64,000 bases of DNA from Chromatiaceae bacterium (lineage in GTDB: Bacteria; Pseudomonadota; Gammaproteobacteria; Chromatiales; Chromatiaceae): contig JAJDNF010000056.1 in assembly GCA_022340805.1 (NCBI GenBank), positions 18,778 through 82,777 of the forward strand, read 5' to 3'. Made by a program: the position numbers and the translations under genes. Positions 40,377-55,894 of this stretch are shown here, one piece after another; positions within the stretch are counted from its first letter, which is position 1, and the number at the start of each line of letters is the position of its first letter. The notes under the pieces were generated by a model. That model ran no database searches and was not told where the DNA came from. It worked only from the letters and a program-made list of their open reading frames with translations.

Positions 40377-40535
40377 CGAGATGCAGGGCTTGCCGATCTG
40401 TAAGATATGGGCTGCGGACGGGGCACCACTCGGCGGCCAGCGTCGCGGGTTGCCAGGACCAGGCGACCAATAGGATGGCTCCGGGTATTCGATTACATTT
40501 CCGGGTCGTGGAACAACGCAATAAGGGAACAAGAC

Positions 40536-41987
40536 ATGCCAAAGGCAGACATCGGCCTGATAGGTTTGGCGGTGATGGGGCAAAACCTCGTCCTGAATAT
40601 GGCGGACAACGGCTATCGTGTCGCGGTCTTCAATCGCACCACGAGCAAGGTGGATGAGTTCCTCGAGGGACCGGCGAAGGGCACGACGATCATTGGCACC
40701 CACAGTCTCGAGGCATTGGTGGAGGCGCTTGCGGTGCCGCGCAAGGTCATGTTGATGGTAAAGGCCGGTGAGGTGGTGGATCGCTTCATCGACATGCTGG
40801 TTCCGCTGCTCGAACCGGGTGACGTGATCATCGATGGAGGCAACTCCCATTATCCGGATACCAGTCGGCGGGTCGCCTATCTGCGTGACAAAGGGCTGCG
40901 CTTCATCGGCACCGGGATATCCGGCGGAGAGGAGGGTGCGCGCCACGGGCCTTCCATCATGCCGGGCGGGGATCCGCAGGCATGGCCTTTGGTGAAGGAT
41001 ATCTTCCAGTCCATTGCGGCCAAGGTAGATGGCGAGCCCTGCTGCCAGTGGGTCGGCCAGGATGGGGCCGGGCACTTCGTCAAGATGGTGCACAACGGCA
41101 TCGAGTACGGCGACATGCAACTGATCTGCGAGGCCTATGCGCTGATGGAGTCGGCACTCGAAATGAGTCACGACCAGATGCACGACATCTTTGCTGACTG
41201 GAACAGCGGCGTACTGGATTCCTACCTGATCGAGATCACCGCCGATATCCTGGCGAAGAGGGACGAGGACGGCGCACCGCTGGTGACCAAGATCCTGGAC
41301 ACCGCCGGCCAGAAGGGAACCGGCAAGTGGACCGGTATCAGCGCGCTGGACCTGGGCGTGCCATTGACCCTGATCGGCGAGGCGGTGTTTGCCAGGGTGC
41401 TGTCATCGCTAAAGGACGAGCGCACCCGCGCATCGCGCAGGCTCGGCCCTCGTCCGAAACGGACCGTGCCGGGCGACAGGCAGGACTTGGTTCGCGCGCT
41501 GCACGATGCCTTGTACGCCTCCAAGATCATTTCCTATGCGCAGGGTTTCATGCTGATGCGCGAGGCCGCCAGAGTACAGGGATGGGATCTCAATTATGGC
41601 GAGATCGCGCTGATGTGGCGGGGCGGTTGCATCATACGCAGCAAGTTCCTCGGCAACATCAAGGCGGCATTCGATAGCAACCCGCAGCTGGACAATCTCG
41701 TGCTGGACGATTTTTTCACCACCGCGCTGAAGGATGCCGAGCCAGGCTGGCGTAAGGCGGTCGTGCTGGCGGTCGAGCAGGGGATTGCAACGCCGGCCTT
41801 TGCCTCGGCCCTTGCCTACTTCGATGGTTATCGCAGCGAACGCCTGCCGGCCAATCTGCTGCAGGCGCAGAGGGATTATTTCGGCGCCCACAGCTATGAG
41901 CGCGTGGACAAGCCGCGTGGGGAGTTCTTCCATACGGACTGGACCGGCCACGGCGGCAAGGTGGCATCGACGACTTACGAGGTGTGA
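40536..41987 (+). CDS. gnd: 6-phosphogluconate dehydrogenase, decarboxylating
   Basis: IGLIGLAVMGQNLVLNMADNGYRVAVFNRT; GTGISGGEEGARHGPSIMPGG. Confidence 0.96.
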   Translation: MPKADIGLIGLAVMGQNLVLNMADNGYRVAVFNRTTSKVDEFLEGPAKGTTIIGTHSLEALVEALAVPRKVMLMVKAGEVVDRFIDMLVPLLEPGDVIIDGGNSHYPDTSRRVAYLRDKGLRFIGTGISGGEEGARHGPSIMPGGDPQAWPLVKDIFQSIAAKVDGEPCCQWVGQDGAGHFVKMVHNGIEYGDMQLICEAYALMESALEMSHDQMHDIFADWNSGVLDSYLIEITADILAKRDEDGAPLVTKILDTAGQKGTGKWTGISALDLGVPLTLIGEAVFARVLSSLKDERTRASRRLGPRPKRTVPGDRQDLVRALHDALYASKIISYAQGFMLMREAARVQGWDLNYGEIALMWRGGCIIRSKFLGNIKAAFDSNPQLDNLVLDDFFTTALKDAEPGWRKAVVLAVEQGIATPAFASALAYFDGYRSERLPANLLQAQRDYFGAHSYERVDKPRGEFFHTDWTGHGGKVASTTYEV

Positions 41988-41989
41988 AC

Positions 41990-43480
41990 ATGAACACGCC
42001 AGTCGAGGCATGTACCTTCGTGATCTTTGGTTCCACCGGCAACCTGTCACGCATCAAATTGATGCCCGCCCTCTATCACCTGGAGGCGGCCGGTAAATTG
42101 CCTGAGAACTGCCGCATCCTGGCGACCGGGCGGCGGCCATGGGATCGGGAGCGCTGGCTGCATGAGGCCCGCGGGATGCTGCATGAAGGCATAGTCACCG
42201 GGGTCGATCCCGAGGTGCTCGAACGTTTCGAGCAGCACCTCGATTACTTCCAGGGTGATATATCCGATCCGCAGATGTATGACCAATTGGCTGAACACAT
42301 CGAACATCAGCCGGACTATTCTGCGAATGTGGCCTTCTACCTGTCGATACGTCCGGCAGAGTTTGGCGTGGTCACCGAAAACCTCAGCCGAACAGGTTTG
42401 CTCAAGGAAGAGAGCGGCTGGCGTCGTGTGGTGATCGAGAAGCCCTTTGGCTATGACCTCGAAAGCGCCCAGGCATTGCAGATCCGCCTGTCACGTCATC
42501 TCGACGAGGCCCAGATCTACCGGATCGACCACTACCTGGGGAAGGAGACGGTGCGCAACGTATTGGTGTTCCGCTTCGCCAATGTCATGCTTGAGCCGCT
42601 GTGGAATCGCAACTACATCGATCACGTGCAGATCACCCACTCCGAGCAGCTTGGGGTTGGCAGTCGCGCGCCCTACTACGACGGGGCGGGTGCATTGCGC
42701 GACATGATCCAGAGCCATCTGCTGCAATTGCTGACCCTGGTCGCGATGGAGCCGCCGGTGTCGATGGAGTCGGAATCGCTGCGCGATGAAAAGGTCAAGG
42801 TGCTGAAATCGGTTCGGCCGATTCCACCGAGTGCGGTGCATTCGCAGGCCTTCCGCGCCCAGTACAGTGCCGGGAAAATGGGTGGCAAAAAGGTGAAGGG
42901 CTATCTGGAAGAGGATGGCGTGCCTGCCGACAGCACCACCGAAACCTATGCCGCGCTGAAACTCCACATCGACAATTGGCGATGGCGCGGCGTGCCGTTC
43001 TACCTGCGCACCGGGAAGCGCATGGCCGAGAGCGTCTCCAGCATCATGATCCGCTTTCGACAGCCACCCACGCAGTTTTTCAAGGATACCCATATACAGC
43101 AGATGGAGCGCAACTGGCTGGTGCTCGGCATCCAGCCCTGCGAATGCCTGCGCATCCAGCTTACGGCGAAGGAGCCGGGATTGGAGATGGAGACCCATCA
43201 GGTCAGCCTGGATGCGGGTTTCCGTACCCAGAGCGACGTCTATGCCGATGCCTACGAGGGCCTGCTGCTGGATGTGATGGAAGGCGACCGCTCGCTGTTT
43301 CTGCGCTATGACGAAGTGGAATATGCCTGGCGCATTGTCGATCCGATCTTGCGGGTCTGGTCGGTGGAACGCGACTTCATCACCTCCTATCCAGCCGGTA
43401 GCTGGGGGCCGGAGGAAAGTCGGCGGCTGTTCGAAAAGGATATCGATCGCTGGCGCCACAAGCTTGATGTGGATGAATAA
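41990..43480 (+). CDS. zwf: Glucose-6-phosphate 1-dehydrogenase
   Basis: FVIFGSTGNLSRIKLMPALYHLEAAG; YRIDHYLGKETVRNVLVFRFAN. Confidence 0.96.
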   Translation: MNTPVEACTFVIFGSTGNLSRIKLMPALYHLEAAGKLPENCRILATGRRPWDRERWLHEARGMLHEGIVTGVDPEVLERFEQHLDYFQGDISDPQMYDQLAEHIEHQPDYSANVAFYLSIRPAEFGVVTENLSRTGLLKEESGWRRVVIEKPFGYDLESAQALQIRLSRHLDEAQIYRIDHYLGKETVRNVLVFRFANVMLEPLWNRNYIDHVQITHSEQLGVGSRAPYYDGAGALRDMIQSHLLQLLTLVAMEPPVSMESESLRDEKVKVLKSVRPIPPSAVHSQAFRAQYSAGKMGGKKVKGYLEEDGVPADSTTETYAALKLHIDNWRWRGVPFYLRTGKRMAESVSSIMIRFRQPPTQFFKDTHIQQMERNWLVLGIQPCECLRIQLTAKEPGLEMETHQVSLDAGFRTQSDVYADAYEGLLLDVMEGDRSLFLRYDEVEYAWRIVDPILRVWSVERDFITSYPAGSWGPEESRRLFEKDIDRWRHKLDVDE

Positions 43481-43741: not shown

Positions 43742-44701
43742 TCAGGCGCACTTGTGACAGGCGTATTGTTCCAGTTTGAGCGTATCCCGGGTGAAACTGC
43801 GGATGCCCTCGGCGAGCTTCTCCGTGGCCATCGCGTCTTCGTTCATCTGCCAGCGGAAATTTGACTCGTCGACCGCCAGGGCAGGGATGTTCATCGTGCG
43901 CGCCTGTCCTGGATCGAGCTTCCTTGCGACCTCGCCCCCGGCCTCGCGCAATTCCTGCATCAGCGCGGGTGCGATGGTCAGGTAGTCGCAACCGGCCAAC
44001 TCGAGGATCTCGCTGCTGTTGCGAAAACTCGCCCCCATGACCACGGTTGGGTAGCCGTGACGCTTGTAATAGTTGTAGATGCGGGTGACAGACTTCACGC
44101 CCGGATCCTCGGCTGGGGCATAGCCCTGTACGCCCTCGGCCTTCCTGTACCAGTCCATGATGCGTCCGACAAACGGCGAAATCAGGGTCACGCCGGCCTC
44201 GGCGCTCGCCACAGCCTGGGCGATGCTGAACATCAGCGTGAGATTGCAGTGATACCCACGACGCTCCAGTTGCTCGGCGGCGCGGATGCCCTCCCAGGTC
44301 GAGGCGATCTTGATCAGCACCCGGTCCGGACCTATACCCGCCTGCCCATACAGATCGATCAGGCGCTCAGCGTGGGCGATCGTGGCCTCGGTGTCGAAGG
44401 AATTGCGCGCGTCGACCTCGGAAGACACCCGCCCCGGTATGATCTTCAGGATCTCGACCCCGAAATTGACCGCCAGCTTGTCCATCATGTCGCGCGACAT
44501 CTGCTCGATGGCATTGCTGCGCGAGCGGGCATATGCGATCGCGTCGTCCAGCAGCCCGGCATATTGGACCTGCTGAGCCGCCTTGAGCAGCAGAGAGGGA
44601 TTGGTGGTGGCGTCGGTGGGCGTGTACTGGGCGATGGCGTCGATGTCGCCGGTGTCGGCGACGACCGTGGTCATGCCCTTGAGCTGGTCGAGTTTGTTCA
44701 T
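43742..44701 (-). CDS. tal: Transaldolase
   Basis: [62 protein letters not shown]. Confidence 0.96.
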
Positions 44702-44735: not shown

Positions 44736-45182
44736 TCAGTTGTCGCGCATGATCTGGTCGTCGTACTGCACCTCGAAGTACAACTTGTGTTTGGCCTCTT
44801 CCTGGGCCAGGCCGAGGAACATGGTCTTCAGCTCCGGGTCGTCGATGGCCCTGGCCATGTCGCTGTACAGCCGGTAGGCGGCCTTTTCACGCTTCATCGC
44901 GACGATCAGCGCGTCCTGCAGGCTGATGTCCTCGGCGGGCTCCACATCGACCAGGTAGTCGGCGATCTTCAGGTCCTGCACGTGCTGGTCGGCATTGAGC
45001 AGCCTGTCGCCCAGCTTGACCGATTTGAGCTTGCCCTTGTGGCGCATCTCCTCCTTGCTGAAGCCCAACAGCATCTCCTTCATCCAGGCGCTGTTGGCGC
45101 GCTCGGCGAGATTGCTGTAGAAATCGGCCGCCTGCTGCTCTCGCTCGATGGCGAAGTCGAGGATCTCGTCTACGGTGTGCAT
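44736..45182 (-). CDS. Ferritin-like/rubrerythrin-type diiron protein (no rubredoxin domain)
   Basis: Two E...EExxH half-sites: [16 protein letters not shown] and [17 protein letters not shown]. Confidence 0.85.
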
Positions 45183-45275: not shown

Positions 45276-47060
45276 TCACCCATCGAGGGTGCCGGTGAGG
45301 AAGCGGTGGATGCCGCGCGCCGCGTGGTGGCCATCCTCGATGGCGCTGATCGCGTCGGCCCGACTGTTGGCGATGTCGCCGCCTACGAACAGCTTGGGCA
45401 GGCCGGTCTGCTGGTATTCGCCGGGGACGAACTTGTTCCACTTGAACTCGATCCGGTCGCGGTACTCGGCGGGGATGAAGTCGAGCTGGCCACCCTGGCC
45501 GATGGCCGCGATGATGCAGTCGTAGGTCTCCTCGTGCATGCGGTCCTCCTGCAGCACGGGTCGCGGCCGGCCGCCCTTGTCGTCGGCGATCATCTCGGCC
45601 TCGCCCCAGACGATCGTCACCTGGCTGGTCGAGGCCGCATTCTTGATCTCGACCGGAATCGCCTGCTGCACCAGCTTACAGCCCTCGGCCTGGGATTCGT
45701 GGATCTCCTCCGGGTCGGCAGGCATGTCCTCGATGCGGCGCCGGTACAGCACCGTGACATCTGCACCCAGCCGGCGCGATACGCGAGCTGCATCCATCGC
45801 GACGTTGCCGCCGCCAATAACCGCAACCTTGCTGCCCACGCCAGGGTCGCGGCCGCTGGCCACGTCGTCGAGGACCTGCAGGCCGGACAGCACGCGTGGG
45901 TGTTCCTCGCCCTGAATGCGCAGCGCGGATGGCTGGTTCAGGCCCACGGCGAGGAACAGCGCGTCGTAGTCCTCGATCAGCTGCCTGAATGGGACGTCGC
46001 GGCCGATATGGGTGTTGAACTTCACCTCCACACCGAGTGAACGGATGTATTCCAGGTCCTTGTCAAGCTGGTCGTCCGGCAAGCGGTAGGAAGGCACGCC
46101 GTAGCGCAGCATGCCGCCGGCACGCGCCTGGGACTCGTACACGGTGACGGCGTAGCCCTGGCGGCGCAGGTAGTAGGCCGCACTCATGCCACCGGGACCG
46201 GCACCGATCACGCCGACCTTCCTGCCATTTTCCACGACCTCGTCGCCGAGGATCTCGCGGTACCTTTCGGCAGGGACGCGGTCGACGATGGCGCGCTTGA
46301 GCCAGCGGATCGCGATCGGGTCGCCCTGGTAGCCCATCACGCAGACGGTCTCGCAGCGGTGCGTGCAGATGCGTCCACAGGTAGAAGAGAAGGGGTTGGT
46401 CTCGTACAGCAGGCGCAGGCCGGCCTCGTAGTCGCGCTGACGCACCGCGCGGATATAGTCGGGGATCGCCATGTGCGCCGGACAGGTGGCCACGCAGATG
46501 CCGCATTCGACGCAGCGGTCGGCCTCGAGCACGGCCTGTTCCTCGGTGTAGCCCTTCATGACCTCGTCGAAGCCCGCGACGCTCTCCTCCGCACCCAGCG
46601 CCTGCATGTCGATGCGCTCGTGCACCAGCAGGTGATAGTCGTCATCGCGCCTGTAGCCGAGGCTGTTCTGGTTCCACGGCATCGCATCGGTACCGGCGGT
46701 GAAGTGGAAGGCATCCGGATCCTCGGTTATCCAGGCGTAGTGATTGCTCATACGCAGCGACCGGGTGGTGCAGATGTCCACGCACAGCGCGCACCAGCAG
46801 CAGCGGCCGTAGTCGAAGCGCGGGCGCAGGCCGCTGTCACCGGAGCGCTGCTCCAAGCCCTCGACCGGCACCATGTCAATCGCGTGATTCTGACAGATCG
46901 TCTCGCAGGTGCCGCAGCCGATGCAGTCCTCGCTGTTCATGTGGAAGCCGCGGTAGCGCGGCGCGCCCGGGCGATCCTCGATCGGGCGCTTCTGGGTGTA
47001 GGGTTTCTCGAACGCCCGCTGCCAGACATAGAAGGGCGAGATCAGGTCTTTCAGACTCAT
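45276..47060 (-). CDS. NuoI-like 2[4Fe-4S] ferredoxin fused to GltD/NfnB-type NAD(P)H flavoprotein
   Basis: CIGCGTCETIC and CCWCALCVDIC near N-terminus; GltD-type CVECGICVATCP..CGRICTHRCETVC; FAD motif VGVIGAGPGGMSAAYYLRRQGYAVTVYE; NAD(P) motif VAVIGGGNVAMDAARVSRRLGADVTVLYRRR. Confidence 0.9.
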   Translation of the reverse strand: MSLKDLISPFYVWQRAFEKPYTQKRPIEDRPGAPRYRGFHMNSEDCIGCGTCETICQNHAIDMVPVEGLEQRSGDSGLRPRFDYGRCCWCALCVDICTTRSLRMSNHYAWITEDPDAFHFTAGTDAMPWNQNSLGYRRDDDYHLLVHERIDMQALGAEESVAGFDEVMKGYTEEQAVLEADRCVECGICVATCPAHMAIPDYIRAVRQRDYEAGLRLLYETNPFSSTCGRICTHRCETVCVMGYQGDPIAIRWLKRAIVDRVPAERYREILGDEVVENGRKVGVIGAGPGGMSAAYYLRRQGYAVTVYESQARAGGMLRYGVPSYRLPDDQLDKDLEYIRSLGVEVKFNTHIGRDVPFRQLIEDYDALFLAVGLNQPSALRIQGEEHPRVLSGLQVLDDVASGRDPGVGSKVAVIGGGNVAMDAARVSRRLGADVTVLYRRRIEDMPADPEEIHESQAEGCKLVQQAIPVEIKNAASTSQVTIVWGEAEMIADDKGGRPRPVLQEDRMHEETYDCIIAAIGQGGQLDFIPAEYRDRIEFKWNKFVPGEYQQTGLPKLFVGGDIANSRADAISAIEDGHHAARGIHRFLTGTLDG

Positions 47061-47064
47061 GGTG

Positions 47065-48207
47065 CTACCTCTCGATCTCCGGCGGATAGGTGTGCAGGGA
47101 CACCATCAGACCGGCGATGTCGGCAATGTTGGTCCCCACGGCGAGCTTTTCCATCAATGCGATCGCGTGGGTGTAACTGGGGCCGCGCACGTGCACCCGG
47201 CGCACATATTCGCTGCCGTCCGTGACCAGGTAATAGCCGTATTCGCCGCGCGTGCACTCGGCCTTGGCGTAGGTCTCGCCGGCCGGCACCTGCCAGTGCA
47301 GCACGTTCGGCATCCTGGCCTGGAAGGGGCCGTCCTTGGGCATGCGGTCCAGGCACTGGCGCAGCATGCGGATCCCCTGGTGCATCTCCTGATAGCGCAC
47401 CCATGCGCGTGCGTAGGTATCGGACTCGGTGGCGGTGATCAGGTCGAATTCGAGCTGGTCGTAGACCAGGTAGGGGGCATCCTTGCGCAGGTCGCGGGCG
47501 AAGCCGGCGGCGCGCTGGTTTGGGCCGGTGATGCCGTAGGGGTCGACCATCTCCCGCGGGATATGGCCCAGGCCCTTGGTGCGCGCCTTGAACACGACGT
47601 TGTTGAACAGCACCTTTTCCACATCGCGCAGCAGCTTCTCCACGCGGTTCAGCACCTCGTGGCAGCGACCCTCGAAGCCTTCCGGCAGGCGCCCGCGCAC
47701 GCCGCCCGGGACTATGTACATATGGTATACGCGCGCCCCGGTCATCTCCTCGAACAGGTCGAGGATGTAGTCACGGTGGGTCACGGTCCACTGGTAGACG
47801 GTACTCTGGCCAAATGCCGCACCAATGCCGCCCAGCCACATCAGATAACTCGCCAGGCGCATCAGCTCCAGGTTCAGGGTGCGGATCCACTCGGCGCGTT
47901 CGGGTGACTGGATCCCGGCCAGCTCCTCCACCACTGCGGCATACAGGTACTCGTTGAAGGTGGGCTCGGGCACCGCGATGCGGCAGACGATCGGGAAGTT
48001 CTGGATGAAGGTGCGCCGCTCCATCAGCTTCTCGAAGCCGCGGTGCAGGTAACCGACATGGGTCTTGCAATCCACCACCTCGTCGCCGCAGGTGGTCAGT
48101 TCCAGAGACATGTTGCCGGTGATGCCCGGGTGCTGCGGTCCCTGCCAGAGCTTGAGGTACTTGCCGGAGCTCAGATCTACCGGGGGATTGGGTTCGAACA
48201 CGATCAC
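47065..48207 (-). CDS. NuoD-like / group-4-hydrogenase-related large subunit without NiFe ligands
   Basis: LWQGPQHPGITGNMSLELTTCGDEVVDCKTHVGYLHRGFEKLMERRTF..; no RxCGxC and no C-terminal DPCxxC. Confidence 0.88.
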   Translation of the reverse strand: MIVFEPNPPVDLSSGKYLKLWQGPQHPGITGNMSLELTTCGDEVVDCKTHVGYLHRGFEKLMERRTFIQNFPIVCRIAVPEPTFNEYLYAAVVEELAGIQSPERAEWIRTLNLELMRLASYLMWLGGIGAAFGQSTVYQWTVTHRDYILDLFEEMTGARVYHMYIVPGGVRGRLPEGFEGRCHEVLNRVEKLLRDVEKVLFNNVVFKARTKGLGHIPREMVDPYGITGPNQRAAGFARDLRKDAPYLVYDQLEFDLITATESDTYARAWVRYQEMHQGIRMLRQCLDRMPKDGPFQARMPNVLHWQVPAGETYAKAECTRGEYGYYLVTDGSEYVRRVHVRGPSYTHAIALMEKLAVGTNIADIAGLMVSLHTYPPEIER

Positions 48208-48767
48208 TGCCCCCCGGACGACGGCTCGTCCGTGTGCGTGGGATAGAGCAGGCCCTTCATGTGCTCACGCGGATCTTCGGTACCGCGCCCTTCGCGACTG
48301 TAGAAGCGCTCAAGACTGAACGCGGCGGTGTCGAATTCCTTGCGCATGGGTGGAATCTGGTCCCAGCCCTCCAGGCAGAAGTCCTCGTCCAGGCGCGGGC
48401 TGCCGGGGAAGCGGATGCCGTACATCTCGCGCAGTTCGCGCTGGTAGGTGGCGGCCTGGGCCCACAGCCCGTGGATAGACTGCATCTCGGCATTGTCACG
48501 CTCGAGGTCGACGTGCATACCCAGGCTGTGCCTGGCATCGTAATTGTGCAGCATGTATGTGAGCGTGAAGATGCCTTTCTCGATCCAGTCGATGTTCGTC
48601 AGGAACGCCAGGTGGGTGTAGCCGGCATCGTCGCGCAGCTCGCGCAGCAGCCGCACCGCCTGTTCCTTGGGCACCTTGAAGAAGGTCAGATCGGCCTTCT
48701 GCTCGTGGATCTCGCTGATCGCAAAGTTCTTACCGAATCGCTGCAGCAGCTCGATTGGGTTAGCCAT
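48204..48767 (-). CDS. NuoC-like 30-kDa subunit
   Basis: ATYQRELREMYGIRFPGSPRLDEDFCLEGW matches the NuoC signature region. Confidence 0.85.
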   Translation of the reverse strand: MANPIELLQRFGKNFAISEIHEQKADLTFFKVPKEQAVRLLRELRDDAGYTHLAFLTNIDWIEKGIFTLTYMLHNYDARHSLGMHVDLERDNAEMQSIHGLWAQAATYQRELREMYGIRFPGSPRLDEDFCLEGWDQIPPMRKEFDTAAFSLERFYSREGRGTEDPREHMKGLLYPTHTDEPSSGGQ

Positions 48768-48772
48768 GGTCG

Positions 48773-49405
48773 TCACCAGTTGTAGTCCGGCATATTCCAG
48801 TCCTTGATCACGCGTTTCTGATTGGCCTTGTACCAATCGAAGTTTTCCACGTAGCGGTTGGCGCCGTCCGCGCGCCCCTCCATGATCTTCTTCTTCAGCT
48901 CCAGCACGCCGGCCATCAGCACCTCCGGGCGCGGCATGCAGCCGGTGATGTACAGGTCCACCGGCAGGTATTCGTCGAATTTGTTGACCGTGTTGTAGCT
49001 GTCCCAGTACATGCCACCGTTGATCGGGCAGATGCCCAGACAGACCACGAACTTGGGACCCTGCATCTGTTCGTAGGAGCGGATGATGCGCTTGAGCGTC
49101 TTGACCGAGGCGTAACCGCCGATGATGAACACCGAGGACTGGCGTGGGGTGGGGCGCATCTGCACACCCATCCGGTAGGCGTCAAAGCGTGCAGTCATCA
49201 GCGGGTTCAGCTCCACTGCGCCGCAGCCGGTACCGAACGCCAGCAGCCACAGCGAATTGGCGCGCACCCAGTTGACGAATTTCTCCACCACCGCGACCGG
49301 GTAGGGCTCGTAGGGCACCGGCCTGGCGTCCGAGAACAGATCCCGGTCCTCGGCGCTCAAGCCCTCGTTGAGCAACGGGCCGAGGGCGTATTTTTGCGTA
49401 TCCAT
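48773..49405 (-). CDS. NuoB-like (PSST) subunit with altered cysteine pattern
   Basis: NSLWLLAFGTGCGAVELNPLMTARFDAYRMGVQMRPTPRQSSVFIIGG; KFVVCLGICPINGGMYW; PVDLYITGCMPRPE. Confidence 0.88.
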   Translation of the reverse strand: MDTQKYALGPLLNEGLSAEDRDLFSDARPVPYEPYPVAVVEKFVNWVRANSLWLLAFGTGCGAVELNPLMTARFDAYRMGVQMRPTPRQSSVFIIGGYASVKTLKRIIRSYEQMQGPKFVVCLGICPINGGMYWDSYNTVNKFDEYLPVDLYITGCMPRPEVLMAGVLELKKKIMEGRADGANRYVENFDWYKANQKRVIKDWNMPDYNW

Positions 49406-49426: not shown

Positions 49427-50350
49427 TCAGGGCAACAGGACGGCCTGGGTATAGCCGATGGCAGCGATCCCGATCAGGGTCGGGTAACGCAGGAAGAAGC
49501 GGATGGACTGGTCCACGCGGAAGCGCGGAAAGGCCGCGCCCACCACTACTGCCACCATGTATATGGCCCAGGTTTTGATCACAAGTTCCACCAGGTTGGT
49601 GGCGCCGCCGAAGAACAGGTCCATGAACAGGATCAGCTTGGCACCGGCGAACACGGCGCGGTTCATGGTCATCATCGCCAGATAGGAGCTGTGATATTCG
49701 GTCGGCGGGCCTATCGGAATCTCATTGGGCGCCATGGTGACGTCAAACGGCGAATAGCCGGTCATGCCCAGGAAGGCGATCATTGCCGCGATCACAGCCA
49801 GCGGATTGGTGAACAGGGTCCAGTTCAGGATGCCGCCCTGCTGGGCGGCGACGATGTCGTTGATCGACAGGCTGCCGTATTGCACCACGATGGCGATGAT
49901 CGCCAGCGCGAAGGGCACTTCGTAGGCGGTCATCTGGCCGAGGCCGCGGGCCACGCCAATGGCACTGAAGGGATGGCCGCTCTCGCCAGCGCCGATGGCC
50001 ATGCCGAGCTGGCCGAAGAACATGAAATACATCGCCAGAAGCAGATCACCGGCCGAATTGAAATTGCTGAACATCTCGCTGCCATACAGCACGGGCACGA
50101 AGGCCAGCGTGCCGATGCCGCCGGCCAGCCGAAATACCGGGCCGAGGTAGAACATCGCGCCATGACTGACCGCGGTGCGCTTGCCCAGGTTCTTCAGCAG
50201 GTCGATGAAGGGCTGATAGACCGGGATGCCGATGCGCCCCTGCACCTTGGCCAGGGTGCGCGCGACGATGCCCGACAACAGCATGCCGTACAGCCCGACG
50301 ATCGTCAGGTTGATCAGAAAGTAGCCGATCCGAACGGGCCAGTCTTGCAT
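49427..50350 (-). CDS. NuoH-like membrane subunit
   Basis: GRIGIPVYQPFIDLLKNLGKRTAVSHG; PFDVTMAPNEIPIGPPTEYHSSYLAMM. Confidence 0.9.
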   Translation of the reverse strand: MQDWPVRIGYFLINLTIVGLYGMLLSGIVARTLAKVQGRIGIPVYQPFIDLLKNLGKRTAVSHGAMFYLGPVFRLAGGIGTLAFVPVLYGSEMFSNFNSAGDLLLAMYFMFFGQLGMAIGAGESGHPFSAIGVARGLGQMTAYEVPFALAIIAIVVQYGSLSINDIVAAQQGGILNWTLFTNPLAVIAAMIAFLGMTGYSPFDVTMAPNEIPIGPPTEYHSSYLAMMTMNRAVFAGAKLILFMDLFFGGATNLVELVIKTWAIYMVAVVVGAAFPRFRVDQSIRFFLRYPTLIGIAAIGYTQAVLLP

Positions 50351-53300
50351 CAGGAAGGGCCTCCGACCGCAAAATACAGCGTCACGACATACAGCAGGAT
50401 GTACAGCGCATAGGTCTGGCCATTGCCGGTGTAGAAAATCCTCAGACCGGTCCCCATCGAATGGCTCCACTCCGCGACGCCGTTCCAGAAGGCGGTGGCC
50501 CGGGGGAGCACCAGGAAACCCAGCGCACGGTCGTAGAAGCTATAGAAATCGTAGGCGTAGTGGGTCGTCTCAGGGCTTTCCGGACGCTCCGCGGCAAACA
50601 CGATGTTGAACTGCTTGACCCGTTGCACCCGCATGAAACGCGACAGGACGAGCAGCATCAGCAGCGGCACCATGAATACCGCGCCCACCACGTTGATGAC
50701 CAGGAAGCCGTCCCAGTAGCCCAGGCCGCTCTGCATCAGGGAGCCGTGCATGACCAGGGTCTGCGGCAGGTGGCTCGCCATGATCGCGGCGATCGGATTG
50801 ACCAGCCAGTTCGGCTGGACCGACAAGGCCAGGATAACGAACACCAGCAGCAGCTGAGGGATCAGCAGCGCCAGAGGCGCGTCGCGCAGATCCTTGTGGA
50901 TGCGTTTGCGCTGGCCGAGAAAGACCGTGTGGATCATGCGGAAAAGGTACAGGAACGCCACCGCGCTGGCGAAGAAGGCCAGTCCGGTCTGCCAGTACCA
51001 GCCCTTCTCGAGCAGCGCATTGAGCATCAGCCACTTGCCGCCGAACCCGGTCAGCGGCGGTACGCCGGAAAGCGCGATGATGGCGATGAGCATCCCGAAA
51101 AAGCTGACCGGCATGTTGTGGATCAGGCCGCCCATTTTGTACATCTCACGCTGGCCAACGCGCAGGATGATGCCGGCCGCAACCAGGAACAACAGGCCCT
51201 TGAACAACAGGTGATTGACCGCCAGGTAGCCGGCCGCGACCCAGCCCAGATGGCTGCCGGTGGCCAGCGCGGCGACCATGTAGCCGACCTGCCCCATGCT
51301 CGAATAGGCGAGCATTTTCTTCAGGTCCTCCTGGAATATCGCCATCAGGGCGCCGAAGAAGGCGGTCAGCAGACCGATCCAGCTGAGCAGGTACATGACC
51401 ACATCGCTGCCGCCACCCTTGAGACCCAGACTGATCACGCTCAGGAACAGGCCGAAGACGGCGGCCTTGCCGAGTACCGCAGCAAGCATGGCGGAAAAGT
51501 CGTCATCGGCCTCGGCGTAGGCGCCGGGCAGCCACACGTGCACACCCAGCGCGCCGGCCTTGGTCAGGAAACCCAGCAGCAGCAGGCCGAGCACCGCGGC
51601 GGCGCCGTCTTTGACATTGGCCAGGTCCGCCAGCGCGATGGATTGGGTCTCGGCATAGGCAAGGCCGAAGCCGGCCAGCAGCAGGAAGGCCGCGGCCAGT
51701 GAGAAGATCAGGTAAGCGAGCGTGTACGGCGCGGCGTCGCGGCCCATGCACAGCAGCAGGTAGGAACTGACGGTCAGGAACTCCCAGGCCAGAAAGAACT
51801 CAAGGCTGGTGTCGGCCTGCAGCAGGCCGCCAAAGGACAGCAGCAGCATGGTCAGCAGCGCATAGTAGCCACGCCGGGTATCGCCCCGATACAGGCCGGC
51901 AGCGGTCATCAGCAGGCCGCCACCAAGCAGCATCAGGCCGAACAGACCGGTCAGCCCTTCCAGGACAGGCACGACCCGATAGGCATAGTAGGCGACGATG
52001 GCCAGCGTGATCAGGCCCTTGGGGCGAGTGGGCAGGCCATCGATTGAAACCAGCGCGATGCCGGCATAAGCGGGCAGCAGCACCCACAGGGTATCGAGCC
52101 CCAGGCTGTCGGCGGCATAGTGGCCGGCGGCCAGCAGGCCCAGGACCGCCAACACGATCGGCAACAGCTGCGCCACGGCGGGCGCGGGCGTTAGCTGCAC
52201 GCCTGGCGACATCGCCCGACCGAACCAGCGGAACAGGTAGACCGCCTCCAGCAGCGAGCCGACCAGGATCAATGCCACCCAGGAGACCATGCCACCGGCC
52301 GAGAGCTGCATGACCAGCTCCCACTTGGCCCAGAAGCCGGGGAAGGGCGGCAGGCCGGCCAGCGCGGCGAGCAGCAGGCCGAGAATGGCCAGCAGCAGCG
52401 GGTTGGCACGCAGCCCGCGCCAGTCCTCAACCGCGTTACGCTGCAGCGCGCCGGACAGCCAGAACAGCCCGGCCTTGGCCAACAGGTGATTCAGGAACAG
52501 GCCGCCGATCACCAGCGGCATCGCGTCTTCGCGATGCAACTGGGTCAGCAGCACCATGGCCAGGGCCAGCAGGCTCACCTGAGCAATCGATGAATAGCCG
52601 AGCAGGCGGCGAACCTTGTTCTGCTTCAGACCGATGATGTTGGAGGCCAGGAAGGTGGTGCCGGCGACGACCACCAGGGCCGGCAGAAACGGCTCGATCA
52701 GTGGCAGGATCTTGTACAGCGCAAACAGGGCGCCGGCCGATACCCCGACCGAGACCATCGCTGCAATGCCGGTGGGCGCGCTCTCGTACACGTCCAGGCC
52801 CCAGCCGTTGGCTGGATAGGGCTTCAGTTCGATGACCACACCGGCGACCAGCAGGCTCATCGCAACCATGCCCAGCGGGCCCTGGACCTGGGCGATCTGC
52901 TCACGCATGCCGTCAATGTTGAGGGTGCCGGTCAGGTAATAGAACAACATCACGCCCAGCAGGAAGAAGGTCGAGGCCAGCGAAGTGGCGATGATGTACT
53001 TGAAGCCGGCCGTGAGCGTCGCGGCGTTGCGTTCCAGGCTCAGCAGGCCGTATGTGGCGATCGCCGTAATCTCGATGAAGATGAACAGGTTGAACAGGTC
53101 GCGGGTCATGATCATGCCGTCCACGCCCATGCTCAGGATCAGGAACACCGACATCGCCGCGGCCCGACCGCGCAGCAGTCCACCGAGATACCAGGCACCC
53201 AGCAGCGACGCCAGATTGACCCCGGCAACGAAGAACGCCTCTTCCAGTCCCAGGCGCAGGTTGATGGAAAAGGGCGGCGCTATGCCGGCGGTCTGGATCT

Positions 53301-53487
53301 GCTGCGCAGCCGCGCCGTTGACCAGCCAGAGCAGCCACAGCAGGGGCAGAACGGCCTGATAGATGATGGTCAGGTTGAACAGTCCGCGGCTCAGCGCCGG
53401 ACTGCTGCGCTCGATCAGCGGCAGCAGGAAGCCGACGCCGAGCGCGACGATGATCAGATTCAGGGGATTGCCGAGGGCCTCTACCAT
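50350..53487 (-). CDS. Fused double Mrp/Nuo-type proton antiporter (two antiporter modules in one polypeptide)
   Basis: 1045 aa continuous frame. Module 1: LFNLFIFIEITAIATYGLLSLERN, ELKPYPANGWGLDVYESAPTGIAAM. Module 2: FFLAWEFLTVSSYLLLCMGRD, FLTKAGALGVHVWLPGAYAEADDDFSAMLAAVLGKAAVFGLF. Confidence 0.9.
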   Translation of the reverse strand: MVEALGNPLNLIIVALGVGFLLPLIERSSPALSRGLFNLTIIYQAVLPLLWLLWLVNGAAAQQIQTAGIAPPFSINLRLGLEEAFFVAGVNLASLLGAWYLGGLLRGRAAAMSVFLILSMGVDGMIMTRDLFNLFIFIEITAIATYGLLSLERNAATLTAGFKYIIATSLASTFFLLGVMLFYYLTGTLNIDGMREQIAQVQGPLGMVAMSLLVAGVVIELKPYPANGWGLDVYESAPTGIAAMVSVGVSAGALFALYKILPLIEPFLPALVVVAGTTFLASNIIGLKQNKVRRLLGYSSIAQVSLLALAMVLLTQLHREDAMPLVIGGLFLNHLLAKAGLFWLSGALQRNAVEDWRGLRANPLLLAILGLLLAALAGLPPFPGFWAKWELVMQLSAGGMVSWVALILVGSLLEAVYLFRWFGRAMSPGVQLTPAPAVAQLLPIVLAVLGLLAAGHYAADSLGLDTLWVLLPAYAGIALVSIDGLPTRPKGLITLAIVAYYAYRVVPVLEGLTGLFGLMLLGGGLLMTAAGLYRGDTRRGYYALLTMLLLSFGGLLQADTSLEFFLAWEFLTVSSYLLLCMGRDAAPYTLAYLIFSLAAAFLLLAGFGLAYAETQSIALADLANVKDGAAAVLGLLLLGFLTKAGALGVHVWLPGAYAEADDDFSAMLAAVLGKAAVFGLFLSVISLGLKGGGSDVVMYLLSWIGLLTAFFGALMAIFQEDLKKMLAYSSMGQVGYMVAALATGSHLGWVAAGYLAVNHLLFKGLLFLVAAGIILRVGQREMYKMGGLIHNMPVSFFGMLIAIIALSGVPPLTGFGGKWLMLNALLEKGWYWQTGLAFFASAVAFLYLFRMIHTVFLGQRKRIHKDLRDAPLALLIPQLLLVFVILALSVQPNWLVNPIAAIMASHLPQTLVMHGSLMQSGLGYWDGFLVINVVGAVFMVPLLMLLVLSRFMRVQRVKQFNIVFAAERPESPETTHYAYDFYSFYDRALGFLVLPRATAFWNGVAEWSHSMGTGLRIFYTGNGQTYALYILLYVVTLYFAVGGPS

Positions 53488-53852
53488 TTCGAGTCCGTGC
53501 AGTCATCAATCGACAGGGTCTTCTTGTGGGTGTGGATCTGCACGGCATAGGCCAGCATGACGGCGGTAATGCCCAGGCCGATCACGATCGCAGTGAGTAC
53601 CAGCGCGGAGGGCACCGGGTCGACCACGGCAGTCAGCGCGGTGGCCCGGTCCACGGCGGCATCGATTATTGGTGCAGTACCGCCACGGATATAGCCGAGC
53701 GAGACCATGATCATGTGGATGCCGGTATCGATCAGCGAGAAGCCGATGACCATGCGGATGATGTTCTTGCGCACCAGCATGCCCCACAGGCCGATCAGCA
53801 GCAGCCCGAAACCCGTGCCCAGGGTGATGGTCGACAATGGCAGTTCGATCAT
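53481..53852 (-). CDS. MrpC/MnhC (NuoK-like) subunit
   Basis: LLLIGLWGMLVRKNIIRMVIGFSLIDTGIHMIMVSLGY; DPVPSALVLTAIVIGLGITAVMLAYAVQ. Confidence 0.88.
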   Translation of the reverse strand: MIELPLSTITLGTGFGLLLIGLWGMLVRKNIIRMVIGFSLIDTGIHMIMVSLGYIRGGTAPIIDAAVDRATALTAVVDPVPSALVLTAIVIGLGITAVMLAYAVQIHTHKKTLSIDDCTDSKW

Positions 53853-54541
53853 GAGGCCTCACCTTTGAAGCGTTCGAGAACCGCGCTCAGCTCGGCGCCC
53901 ACCTTCAGGCCGATGAAGGTATAGATGACCGGGATGGCACCGGCACTGAACAGCCTGCCGTAGTCGCCTAGCGGCAGGACGCGGTTGTCCAGGAACCCGC
54001 CGGCCAGGACCAGGCCAAGTACCCCCACCAGGACATAGCCGAAACCGGACAGGGATTCGGTGATGATCAGCAGCGCGTGGCGCAACTTGGATCGCGGCAG
54101 GGCCAGGAACAGCAGCAGCGTGGCGGAGGCGATAACCGCACCGCCCTGGAAACCGCCACCGGGGCTCAGATGGCCGTTGACGAAGATGTACGCCCCAAAC
54201 AGCAGCACGATCGGAAACAGGTATTGCACGGCGGTTTCGACGATCTCGCTGGCCGGCGTCGGCGGTTCCGCCTTTTGATCCAGCCCCCCCATGGTGAGCA
54301 GCAGGCCGACCGCCACCGCGGACAGAAACAGCACCGTGACTTCACCCAGGGTGTCCAGGCCTCGATAGGTCACCACCACCGCAGTAACCAGGTTGGGGGC
54401 ACCTACCTCGTCGGGACCCTGTGCCACGTAGTGCGTGGCGATCGGCGTCAGTGCGGTCCTTTCGGTGTAGTTGGCCGCGACCTCCCAGAACATCATCGCC
54501 AGAAGGAACAGGGCCAGTACGATCAGCAGACGCTTCGCCAT
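53849..54541 (-). CDS. MbhE/F-like, MnhB-domain subunit
   Basis: VTAVVVTYRGLDTLGEVTVLFLSAVAVGLLL; NGHLSPGGGFQGGAVIASATLLLFLAL. Confidence 0.88.
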   Translation of the reverse strand: MAKRLLIVLALFLLAMMFWEVAANYTERTALTPIATHYVAQGPDEVGAPNLVTAVVVTYRGLDTLGEVTVLFLSAVAVGLLLTMGGLDQKAEPPTPASEIVETAVQYLFPIVLLFGAYIFVNGHLSPGGGFQGGAVIASATLLLFLALPRSKLRHALLIITESLSGFGYVLVGVLGLVLAGGFLDNRVLPLGDYGRLFSAGAIPVIYTFIGLKVGAELSAVLERFKGEAS

Positions 54542-54552
54542 GTCAGTGAGCC

Positions 54553-54888
54553 CTATGCGTCGCCAGCGCGGTTCTCCGCCTCTTCCAGGCGGTCGATGAC
54601 GGTCTTGTCGCTGCGCGGTATGCGCCTGGCGTGCGAGGCGCGCGCCAGCGCATGCGATGAGACCGGGTTGGTCAACAGCACGAAAAACACCAGCAGCAAC
54701 AGTTTGCCGGTCCAGGCCGGGTGATAAACACATAGGCCGAGCAATACCAGAATGGTGCCAAGCGTGGATGCCTTGGTCCCGGTTTGAATGCGGTTGTAAC
54801 TGTCAGGCATGCGCAGCACGCCGAGACCGGCCGCAAACAGGAACACCGAACCGGCCAGGATCACCAGACTGCCGATCAGTTCAGTCAT
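54553..54888 (-). CDS. MrpG/MnhG subunit (alternative upstream starts at 54897 or 54927)
   Basis: GVLRMPDSYNRIQTGTKASTLGTILVLLGL; LLTNPVSSHALARASHARR. Confidence 0.85.
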   Translation of the reverse strand: MTELIGSLVILAGSVFLFAAGLGVLRMPDSYNRIQTGTKASTLGTILVLLGLCVYHPAWTGKLLLLVFFVLLTNPVSSHALARASHARRIPRSDKTVIDRLEEAENRAGDA

Positions 54889-55141
54889 CCTTTTCATGCT
54901 CCTGGCGTCGGGTGCGATTGATCGCATAAAGAAAGATCGCGGTCGAAAGGCCGCTGCCGATCGAGGCCTCGGTCATGGCCACGTCCGGGGCGGACAGGAT
55001 CACGTAGGTGACCGCGGCGAACAGGCTGGTGAGTCCCGCGGCGATCACCGCGCTGACCACGTTGCCCATGCTGACCGCGGCGACGGCGCCGAACAGAATC
55101 CCGGCACAGATCAATAGCGTGAGCAGGGTCATGGGGTCCAT
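54881..55141 (-). CDS. MbhD-like (DUF4040) subunit
   Basis: GNVVSAVIAAGLTSLFAAVTYVILSAPDVAMTEASIGSGLSTAIFLYAI. Confidence 0.82.
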   Translation of the reverse strand: MDPMTLLTLLICAGILFGAVAAVSMGNVVSAVIAAGLTSLFAAVTYVILSAPDVAMTEASIGSGLSTAIFLYAINRTRRQEHEKDD

Positions 55142-55401
55142 CAGAGTCCCTTTTCCAGGTAGCGGGCGACGGCCAGGACGCCGAGGAAACTCAACAGACC
55201 GTAGACGATGGCAACGTCCACGTAGATGAAGCGCCCCGAGATGTGAGCGAGCAGTACGATAATCGACAGGGACACGACGGTAAGCAGATCCACCGCAATG
55301 ACACGGTCGGTTTCGGTCTCACCCTTGACCAGCCGGATCACCCCGAACAGGATGGCGAAACCAATCAGCACCATTGCCAGATTCAGGATCTGCTCAGCCA
55401 T
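55141..55401 (-). CDS. MrpF/MnhF subunit
   Basis: GETETDRVIAVDLLTVVSLSIIVLLAHISGRFIYVDVAIVYGLLSFLGVLAVARYLEKG. Confidence 0.85.
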   Translation of the reverse strand: MAEQILNLAMVLIGFAILFGVIRLVKGETETDRVIAVDLLTVVSLSIIVLLAHISGRFIYVDVAIVYGLLSFLGVLAVARYLEKGL

Positions 55402-55894
55402 AGATCACACTCAGGTGCTTTTCGAAACGCGCGGCAATGGCCCGGGTGGCGCCTTGTGGATCGTCGCTCTGAACATCGATCCAGTGCACGAACAGCGAGT
55501 CGCCGTCGATGTCCACCACCAGGGTGCCCGGCGTGAGCGTAATCGAGTTGGCCAACACCATGCGCCCGGTGCGCGATTTCAGTTTGGTCTTGATCTCGAC
55601 GATGCCCGGATGGATGTCGATGCGCGGCGAAAACACCAGACGCGCCACGTTCAGATTGGCGCGCAGCAGTTCCGCGGAGAACACCAACAGGTACAGGACG
55701 TAATGGACAAGTACCTGTGGTGACAGCCTTACCTCGGCGTAGGCGCTGCTAAAGCCGGCCAGACCCAGGCTCAGCAGGGTCGCGAGCAACACCCCAGTTA
55801 GCACCACCTGACTGTCCAGTGAGGCGTTGGCCAGCAGCCAGATGGCCAGTAGGGTCACCCAGAGATTGATCACCACCCTTGCCTTGCTTACCAC
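55394..55894 (-). CDS. MrpE/MnhE subunit
   Basis: SPRIDIHPGIVEIKTKLKSRTGRMVLANSITLTPGTLVVDIDGDSLFVHWIDV. Confidence 0.88.
   Translation of the reverse strand: MVSKARVVINLWVTLLAIWLLANASLDSQVVLTGVLLATLLSLGLAGFSSAYAEVRLSPQVLVHYVLYLLVFSAELLRANLNVARLVFSPRIDIHPGIVEIKTKLKSRTGRMVLANSITLTPGTLVVDIDGDSLFVHWIDVQSDDPQGATRAIAARFEKHLSVIYG

Follow-up and report, generated by a model that had tools for sequence, protein, structure and literature searches.

A NuoD-like protein of a Chromatiaceae bacterium assigned to an MBS/MBX-type complex with a fused NAD(P)H module

Results

An MbsL-type subunit within an MBS-like operon

The NuoD-like protein encoded in the stretch of DNA analyzed here (64,000 nucleotides from a Chromatiaceae bacterium, hereafter the window) is, judged by its sequence, the MbsL counterpart in a bacterial complex of the MBS/MBX type, and belongs neither to complex I nor to a hydrogenase. 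It matches the Complex1_49kDa profile at 1.4e-70 in a Pfam profile search, and family models label it 'NADH-quinone oxidoreductase subunit D'. Its gene lies in an operon running from 55894 to 44736, listed here in gene order and followed by the adjoining genes.

55394..55894, minus strand: MnhE/MbsA-like subunit, first gene of the operon, seen in the operons of relatives
55141..55401, minus strand: MnhF/MbsB-like subunit, seen in the operons of relatives
54881..55141, minus strand: MbhD/MbsD-like subunit, conserved in the same operon of relatives
54553..54927, minus strand: MnhG/MbsC-like subunit, conserved in the same operon of relatives
53849..54541, minus strand: MbhE+MnhB fusion, like MbsE; start inferred, open reading frame (ORF) running to 54733
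53481..53852, minus strand: MnhC/MbsG-like subunit, by domain match
50350..53487, minus strand: MbsH-MbsH' fusion of 1045 aa with two antiporter-type pump domains, the N-half without the TM8 Lys
49427..50350, minus strand: NuoH/MbsM-like membrane anchor; start inferred, ORF running to 50470
48773..49405, minus strand: NuoB/MbsJ-like subunit with C61, C126 and C156, Gly58 at MbsJ Cys25 and Gly62 at the second tandem Cys of complex I
48204..48767, minus strand: NuoC/MbsK-like subunit; start inferred from relatives, longest ORF to 48836
48207..47065, minus strand: NuoD/MbsL-like subunit; intact ORF of 380 codons with a GTG start, C-terminus SLHTYPPEIER
45276..47060, minus strand: NuoI/MbsN-like 2x[4Fe-4S] domain joined to an FAD and NAD(P)H domain of the GltD/NfnB type, whose YRRR motif is NADPH-like
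44736..45182, minus strand: rubrerythrin/ferritin-like protein, an operon neighbor in many relatives; start inferred, ORF to 45215
43742..44701, minus strand: transaldolase-like ORF, next downstream and named by reading its sequence; probably context, outside the complex
40407..43480, plus strand: 6-phosphogluconate dehydrogenase-like and glucose-6-phosphate dehydrogenase-like ORFs (NADPH-forming pentose phosphate), named by reading their sequences

Counting fused domains, this is the full set of MBS subunits in an MBS-like order, as set against Table 2 of PMC8415708. The membrane arm is Mrp-type and has both pump subunits, H and H' (fused); M, J, K, L and N are present as well.

Residues at the quinone and NiFe sites were assigned by alignment with E. 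coli K-12 NuoCD, with HycE (annotated genome) and with the host genome's own complex I NuoD. Thr30 stands at the position of Nqo4 His38 and Val79 at that of Tyr87, with Ala78 preceding the latter. The initial annotation had proposed precisely these substitutions from a hand alignment, without naming a strand; its residue placements hold, but it misquoted E. coli, since K-12 carries PYTDRIEYLGG, with Glu before the Tyr, and not PYTDRIDYLGG, with Asp. It had also reported both NiFe ligand pairs (RxCGxC and DPCxxC) to be absent, and indeed none of the four cysteines has a counterpart in the window protein, the HycE motifs RVCGIC and DPCYSC corresponding to CRIAV and SLHTYPPEIER. Nor does the protein contain, anywhere along its length, the CxxC of group 4 [NiFe] hydrogenases (MBH, Hyc), which disposes of a hidden hydrogenase. 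The complex carries Thr and Val in place of the His38/Tyr87 pair, and C61-Gly62 in place of the NuoB tandem cysteines, so that it does not qualify as complex I. A damaged or pseudogenized complex I was likewise rejected, because the operon, conserved among relatives, shows no damage and the genome encodes a normal NuoD of complex I at another place. At the level of sequence, the earlier impression of a pocket that looks neither quinone-reducing nor hydrogen-evolving is thus supported.

Among MbsL-like proteins, with the window protein counted in, all 84 have Thr at the His38 site and Val at the Tyr87 site, a uniformity that rules out chance or sequencing error as the source of Thr30 and Val79. 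In none of the 84 is the His/Tyr pair restored by other residues; such a restoration is what the initial annotation had named as contradicting its view.

The best PDB match of the MbsL-like protein is to chain L of the P. furiosus MBS (6u8y_L), which scores 316 bits where complex I reaches 228 and MBH 129, and the NuoB/MbsJ-like protein follows suit (6u8y_J, 210 versus 124 bits). In a tree from a quick search with long outgroup branches, P. furiosus MBS and two bacterial families split from complex I with an SH-aLRT of 99. The published MBS itself is without the quinone His/Tyr pair and the key Glu of MBH, and has two of the four NiFe cysteines left (C85 and C385), both dispensable for activity (PMC7684303); its chemistry, the reduction of sulfane sulfur, takes place at the proximal [4Fe-4S] cluster, for which the NuoB-like subunit provides three Cys ligands (PMC7684303). 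The absence of quinone and NiFe residues is therefore the normal, family-defining state in the window protein, since the MBS/MBX family shows the same. It follows also that the pocket need not be devoid of chemistry, because that of the published MBS/MBX reduces sulfane sulfur at the proximal cluster.

AlphaFold predicts the common NuoD fold for the window protein (pTM 0.85, mean pLDDT 84.7), the loops that would carry the pocket residues, 26-31 and 371-380, falling below a pLDDT of 50. Among the matches listed by Foldseek, 6u8y_L has the top TM-scores (0.89/0.90, 40% identity), with complex I chains nearly equal (~0.87), so that the fold is of no use for family assignment.

The proximal cluster and leftover cysteines across the family

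Hundreds of matches came from scanning a single genome for each species, and of these we kept 80 that are 54-77% identical to the window MbsL. Cultured bacteria with a clade-1 complex, the clade of the window, include Thiothrix caldifontis, Tropicimonas isoalkanivorans and Celeribacter. The 80 are spread over Pseudomonadota, Spirochaetota, Cloacimonadota, Bacteroidota, Chlorobiota, Calditrichota, Neomarinimicrobiota, Acidobacteriota, Fermentibacterota and others. All 74 NuoB-like proteins possess the three proximal-cluster cysteines (C61, C126 and C156 of the window), which predicts a proximal [4Fe-4S] cluster with three Cys ligands in the window NuoB. The site of MbsJ Cys25 is Gly or Ala in all 74 (Gly58 in the window) and never Cys. 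The two remaining NiFe-type positions are variable: the C85 site of MbsL-like proteins (n = 84) is Cys in 60, Ala in 22 and Ser in 2, and the C385 site (n = 83) is Tyr in 57 and Cys in 26. The fourth cysteine, present but unused in MBS, is thus lost family-wide, and the two dispensable cysteines drift. A single NuoB among the 74, that of locus L023 (11347-11979), has a tandem Cys (GTGCC) beside C61, as in complex I.

The fused antiporter-type pump

An H-H' fusion is found in every clade-1 locus with a complete gene, whereas H and H' are separate in the sister clade 2. The C-half of the window fusion has MbsH' as its best match and retains the five key residues of that subunit (Glu569, Lys643, Lys674, His759 and Lys818); across 57 fusion sequences, Lys674 is replaced by Asn in two and Lys818 by Arg in 15. 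The N-half matches MbsH and retains Glu139, Glu220 and Lys388, but at positions 245-252 none of the 57 sequences has an equivalent of the lysine found centrally in TM8 of MbsH. Within residues 217-262 of this half, an ELKP(F/Y)PANGW-type motif provides Lys222, which never varies, and 54/55 have Lys259 at a later point of TM8. Should this half no longer pump, a lower number of ions per turnover would fit the small drop in potential from NADPH to sulfur.

An NAD(P)H module in two specificities

The nearest solved relatives of the GltD-type domain are 8oh5_C, 9bov_A and NfnI alpha. Throughout 72 fused subunits, the cluster cysteines and the glycines of the FAD and NAD(P) motifs are invariant. The end of the second dinucleotide strand (window residues 439-442) reads Arg-Arg in 35 sequences, the window with its Arg440 and Arg441 included, and Glu in 40, a clean split for which three changes on the clade-1 tree could suffice; the ten clade-2 proteins all have Glu at this nucleotide-specificity position. 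In folds of this type, Arg-Arg usually goes with NADPH and Glu with NADH. The window domain would thus be NADPH-like and its Glu-type relatives NADH-like, and the fusion suggests NADPH as a donor in place of, or alongside, ferredoxin. The CPQEEQCE segment of Nfn becomes CTHRCE in the window and C(T/S)xxCE in relatives, so that the NfnL-type carboxylate stretch, whose carboxylate we take to be a cluster ligand, is missing.

One complex of each type is encoded in the same genome, the NADPH-like one in the window and an NADH-like, clade-2 one on contig C13. This second MBX-type locus (L019, genome G000, contig C13, 136-3735) comprises an MbsL 49% identical to that of the window, a NuoI-GltD fusion with the Glu motif and a rubrerythrin-like gene; the contig ends before any membrane genes.

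Neighboring genes and co-occurrence with sulfur metabolism

Genes resembling zwf, gnd and tal adjoin the window operon, and two related gammaproteobacterial loci (L042 and L053) are flanked by gnd on the upstream side and by a phosphoglucomutase-like gene on the downstream side. The gene immediately after the operon is rubrerythrin/ferritin-like in 24/64 relatives with enough flanking sequence, and in most clade-2 loci; oxygen protection for an exposed cluster is one possible role. A dihydroorotate-dehydrogenase-like flavoprotein takes its place as next gene in the Bacteroidota/Chlorobiota loci L076, L089, L093, L097, L101, L104, L105, L106, L109 and L112. No dedicated sulfur gene recurs in the flanks of the relatives, where the recurrent genes, named by reading their sequences, are rubrerythrin/ferritin-like, dihydroorotate-dehydrogenase-like (Bacteroidota), CBS-domain and CRP-like.

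The host carries a dsr operon, dsrABEFHCMKLJ, that by reading its sequences is of the oxidative type, with dsrEFH. Sampling of 274 genomes of the class revealed MBX of either clade in 13, each from a different family; a match in genome G211 (39% identity) was left out of this count as complex I. All 13 MBX-bearing genomes have dsrA, compared with 81 of the 261 others (Fisher p = 5e-7, kinship uncorrected beyond the 13 families), and clade 2 accounts for 10 of the 14 MBX loci behind the association. Genes of the glycogen phosphorylase family also occur in each of the 13 and discriminate little. The Mrp-Mbx genes of the Riftia symbiont Endoriftia are co-expressed with the reductive TCA cycle, and the MBX of T. 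maritima is S0-induced. Together with the dsrA association, these data point indirectly to zero-valent sulfur as a possible substrate.

Discussion

A proposed route from NADPH to sulfane sulfur

The reading that we favor, and hold to be moderately probable, is that the complex passes electrons from NADPH through an open-site [4Fe-4S] cluster to sulfane sulfur, coupled to ion transport in the manner of MBS/MBX; for this we infer the substrate, direction, coupling and ion. Electrons from NADPH would enter at the FAD domain of GltD type, which forms one chain with the MbsN/NuoI-like subunit, and run over the [4Fe-4S] clusters of that subunit to the proximal [4Fe-4S] cluster of NuoB. Since this cluster has only three Cys ligands, one of its irons would be left open, in a chamber equivalent to the quinone site of complex I, and there could reductively cleave sulfane sulfur, in the form of polysulfide or persulfide. 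The three-loop and antiporter machinery would in turn couple sulfur reduction to the transport of H+ and then Na+. In a sulfur-oxidizing host, a likely use would be to dump NADPH, for example from glycogen via the adjoining pentose phosphate genes, onto stored sulfur at low oxygen. The complex may also operate in reverse.

Several observations speak against this route. NADPH to polysulfide spans some 0.1 V and yields little energy, and archaeal MBS uses ferredoxin; coupling to two pumps would therefore be tight. Many relatives, among them Bacteroidales and Roseobacteraceae, belong to organisms for which contact with sulfur is not known here, the dsrA association draws mostly on clade-2 loci, and the NuoB of L023 resembles complex I in its tandem Cys.

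It is conceivable, albeit unlikely in our estimation, that the complex runs the other way, with an ion gradient driving electrons from sulfide or persulfide via the open cluster to NADP+, thereby furnishing a sulfur-oxidizing autotroph with NADPH more cheaply than reverse complex I. The dsr-type host, the occurrence of dsrA in all MBX-bearing genomes sampled in the class and the expression pattern in Endoriftia are all in keeping with such a flow. Nevertheless, the complex is often encoded in Spirochaetota, Cloacimonadota and Bacteroidales, best known as fermenters, where a reductive electron sink fits better, and the zwf and gnd genes that adjoin the operon produce NADPH rather than need it. 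It is tempting to extend this idea, as a rather improbable proposition, to a widespread branch of the complex I superfamily that works as a gradient-driven (or reversible) sulfide/persulfide:NAD(P)+ oxidoreductase, with an NADPH-type and NADH-type pair in one sulfur oxidizer. If true, sulfur oxidizers would make NADPH straight from sulfide, bypassing quinone.

The GltD domain is closest to 8oh5_C, 9bov_A and NfnI alpha, P. furiosus Mbx was named a ferredoxin:NADP+ oxidoreductase in an earlier proposal, and the 2x[4Fe-4S] domain could meet ferredoxin. The complex might accordingly be an ion-pumping or electron-bifurcating NAD(P)H:ferredoxin oxidoreductase in which GltD exchanges electrons among NADPH, ferredoxin and the membrane arm, the pocket being a relic of coupling. 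We consider this quite unlikely: strict conservation of the three-Cys pattern and of the residues lining the chamber is not what a relic would show, and CTHRCE has replaced the Nfn CPQEEQCE. A complex I paralogue that reduces quinone at a site rebuilt from other residues, such as Tyr374 and His372, seems highly improbable. These two C-terminal residues do travel together, His372 being present in 52/52 tabulated Tyr374 sequences, and by homology lie near the pocket at the position of the C-terminal NiFe ligand. However, Cys replaces the Tyr in 26/83 relatives, these sequences carrying A, Q, T or H at the His372 site, mostly one of the first three; the original His/Tyr sites are invariantly Thr and Val, the tree sets the proteins apart from complex I, and the host already has a normal complex I NuoD. 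Reduction of sulfane sulfur with electrons from NADPH remains our preferred reading.

Significance

That the quinone and NiFe residues are missing is already known and is explained by the MBS family. What is new against the open-access literature searched is the combination of a fused NAD(P)H module that comes in two specificities, a double pump made as one chain and the family-wide loss of the fourth cysteine; no prior description of the GltD-fused family was found there. The MBS mechanism, in which a three-Cys [4Fe-4S] cluster performs catalysis without help from side chains, has so far been based on one archaeal enzyme that has the fourth Cys and two NiFe-type cysteines nearby. In this P. 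furiosus enzyme, [3Fe-4S] formation has been followed by EPR upon treatment with ferricyanide. The bacterial family amounts to an independent natural test that favors this mechanism, because across many bacterial phyla none of the 74 has the fourth Cys, and the other two are variable. Furthermore, the fused module, in its NADPH-like and NADH-like forms, suggests that pyridine nucleotides and zero-valent sulfur are linked by an ion pump. Labelling such proteins as complex I subunits can mislead efforts to reconstruct the metabolism of sulfur bacteria and uncultured phyla.

Comparison with known systems

The window complex shares with complex I (NuoA-N) homologues of NuoB, C, D, H and I and the same NuoD fold (TM ~0.87). 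It differs in having Mrp subunits, in an operon without NuoE/F/G, and in lacking the quinone His/Tyr pair and the NuoB tandem Cys.

With the P. furiosus MBS (6U8Y; formerly MBX), one of the closest known systems, it has in common the subunit set, a similar gene order, an MbhE/MnhB-type fusion, the three-Cys proximal cluster and the missing quinone His/Tyr; L, J and H' find their best sequence matches there, and H a close one. The archaeal enzyme, however, is ferredoxin-fed, is without an NAD(P)H module and has separate H and H', and it retains MbsJ C25 and MbsL C85/C385, all of which the window complex has lost. The T. maritima MBX (a 13-gene cluster), compared by description only, is a bacterial MBS homologue tied to sulfur and is described as ferredoxin-fed.

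Clade-2 MBX (L019 and L025-L033) has the same arrangement of Mrp-NuoHBCD and a NuoI-GltD fusion, with a rubrerythrin neighbor. In contrast to the window complex, its MbsL is 47-50% identical, H and H' are separate, C25/C85/C385 are kept and the GltD domain has the NADH-like Glu. In clade 2, the quinone-His position (His38 site) is occupied by Glu in each of the ten MbsL proteins, and this Glu may align with the key Glu of MBH. The Endoriftia Mrp-Mbx possibly belongs to the same clade.
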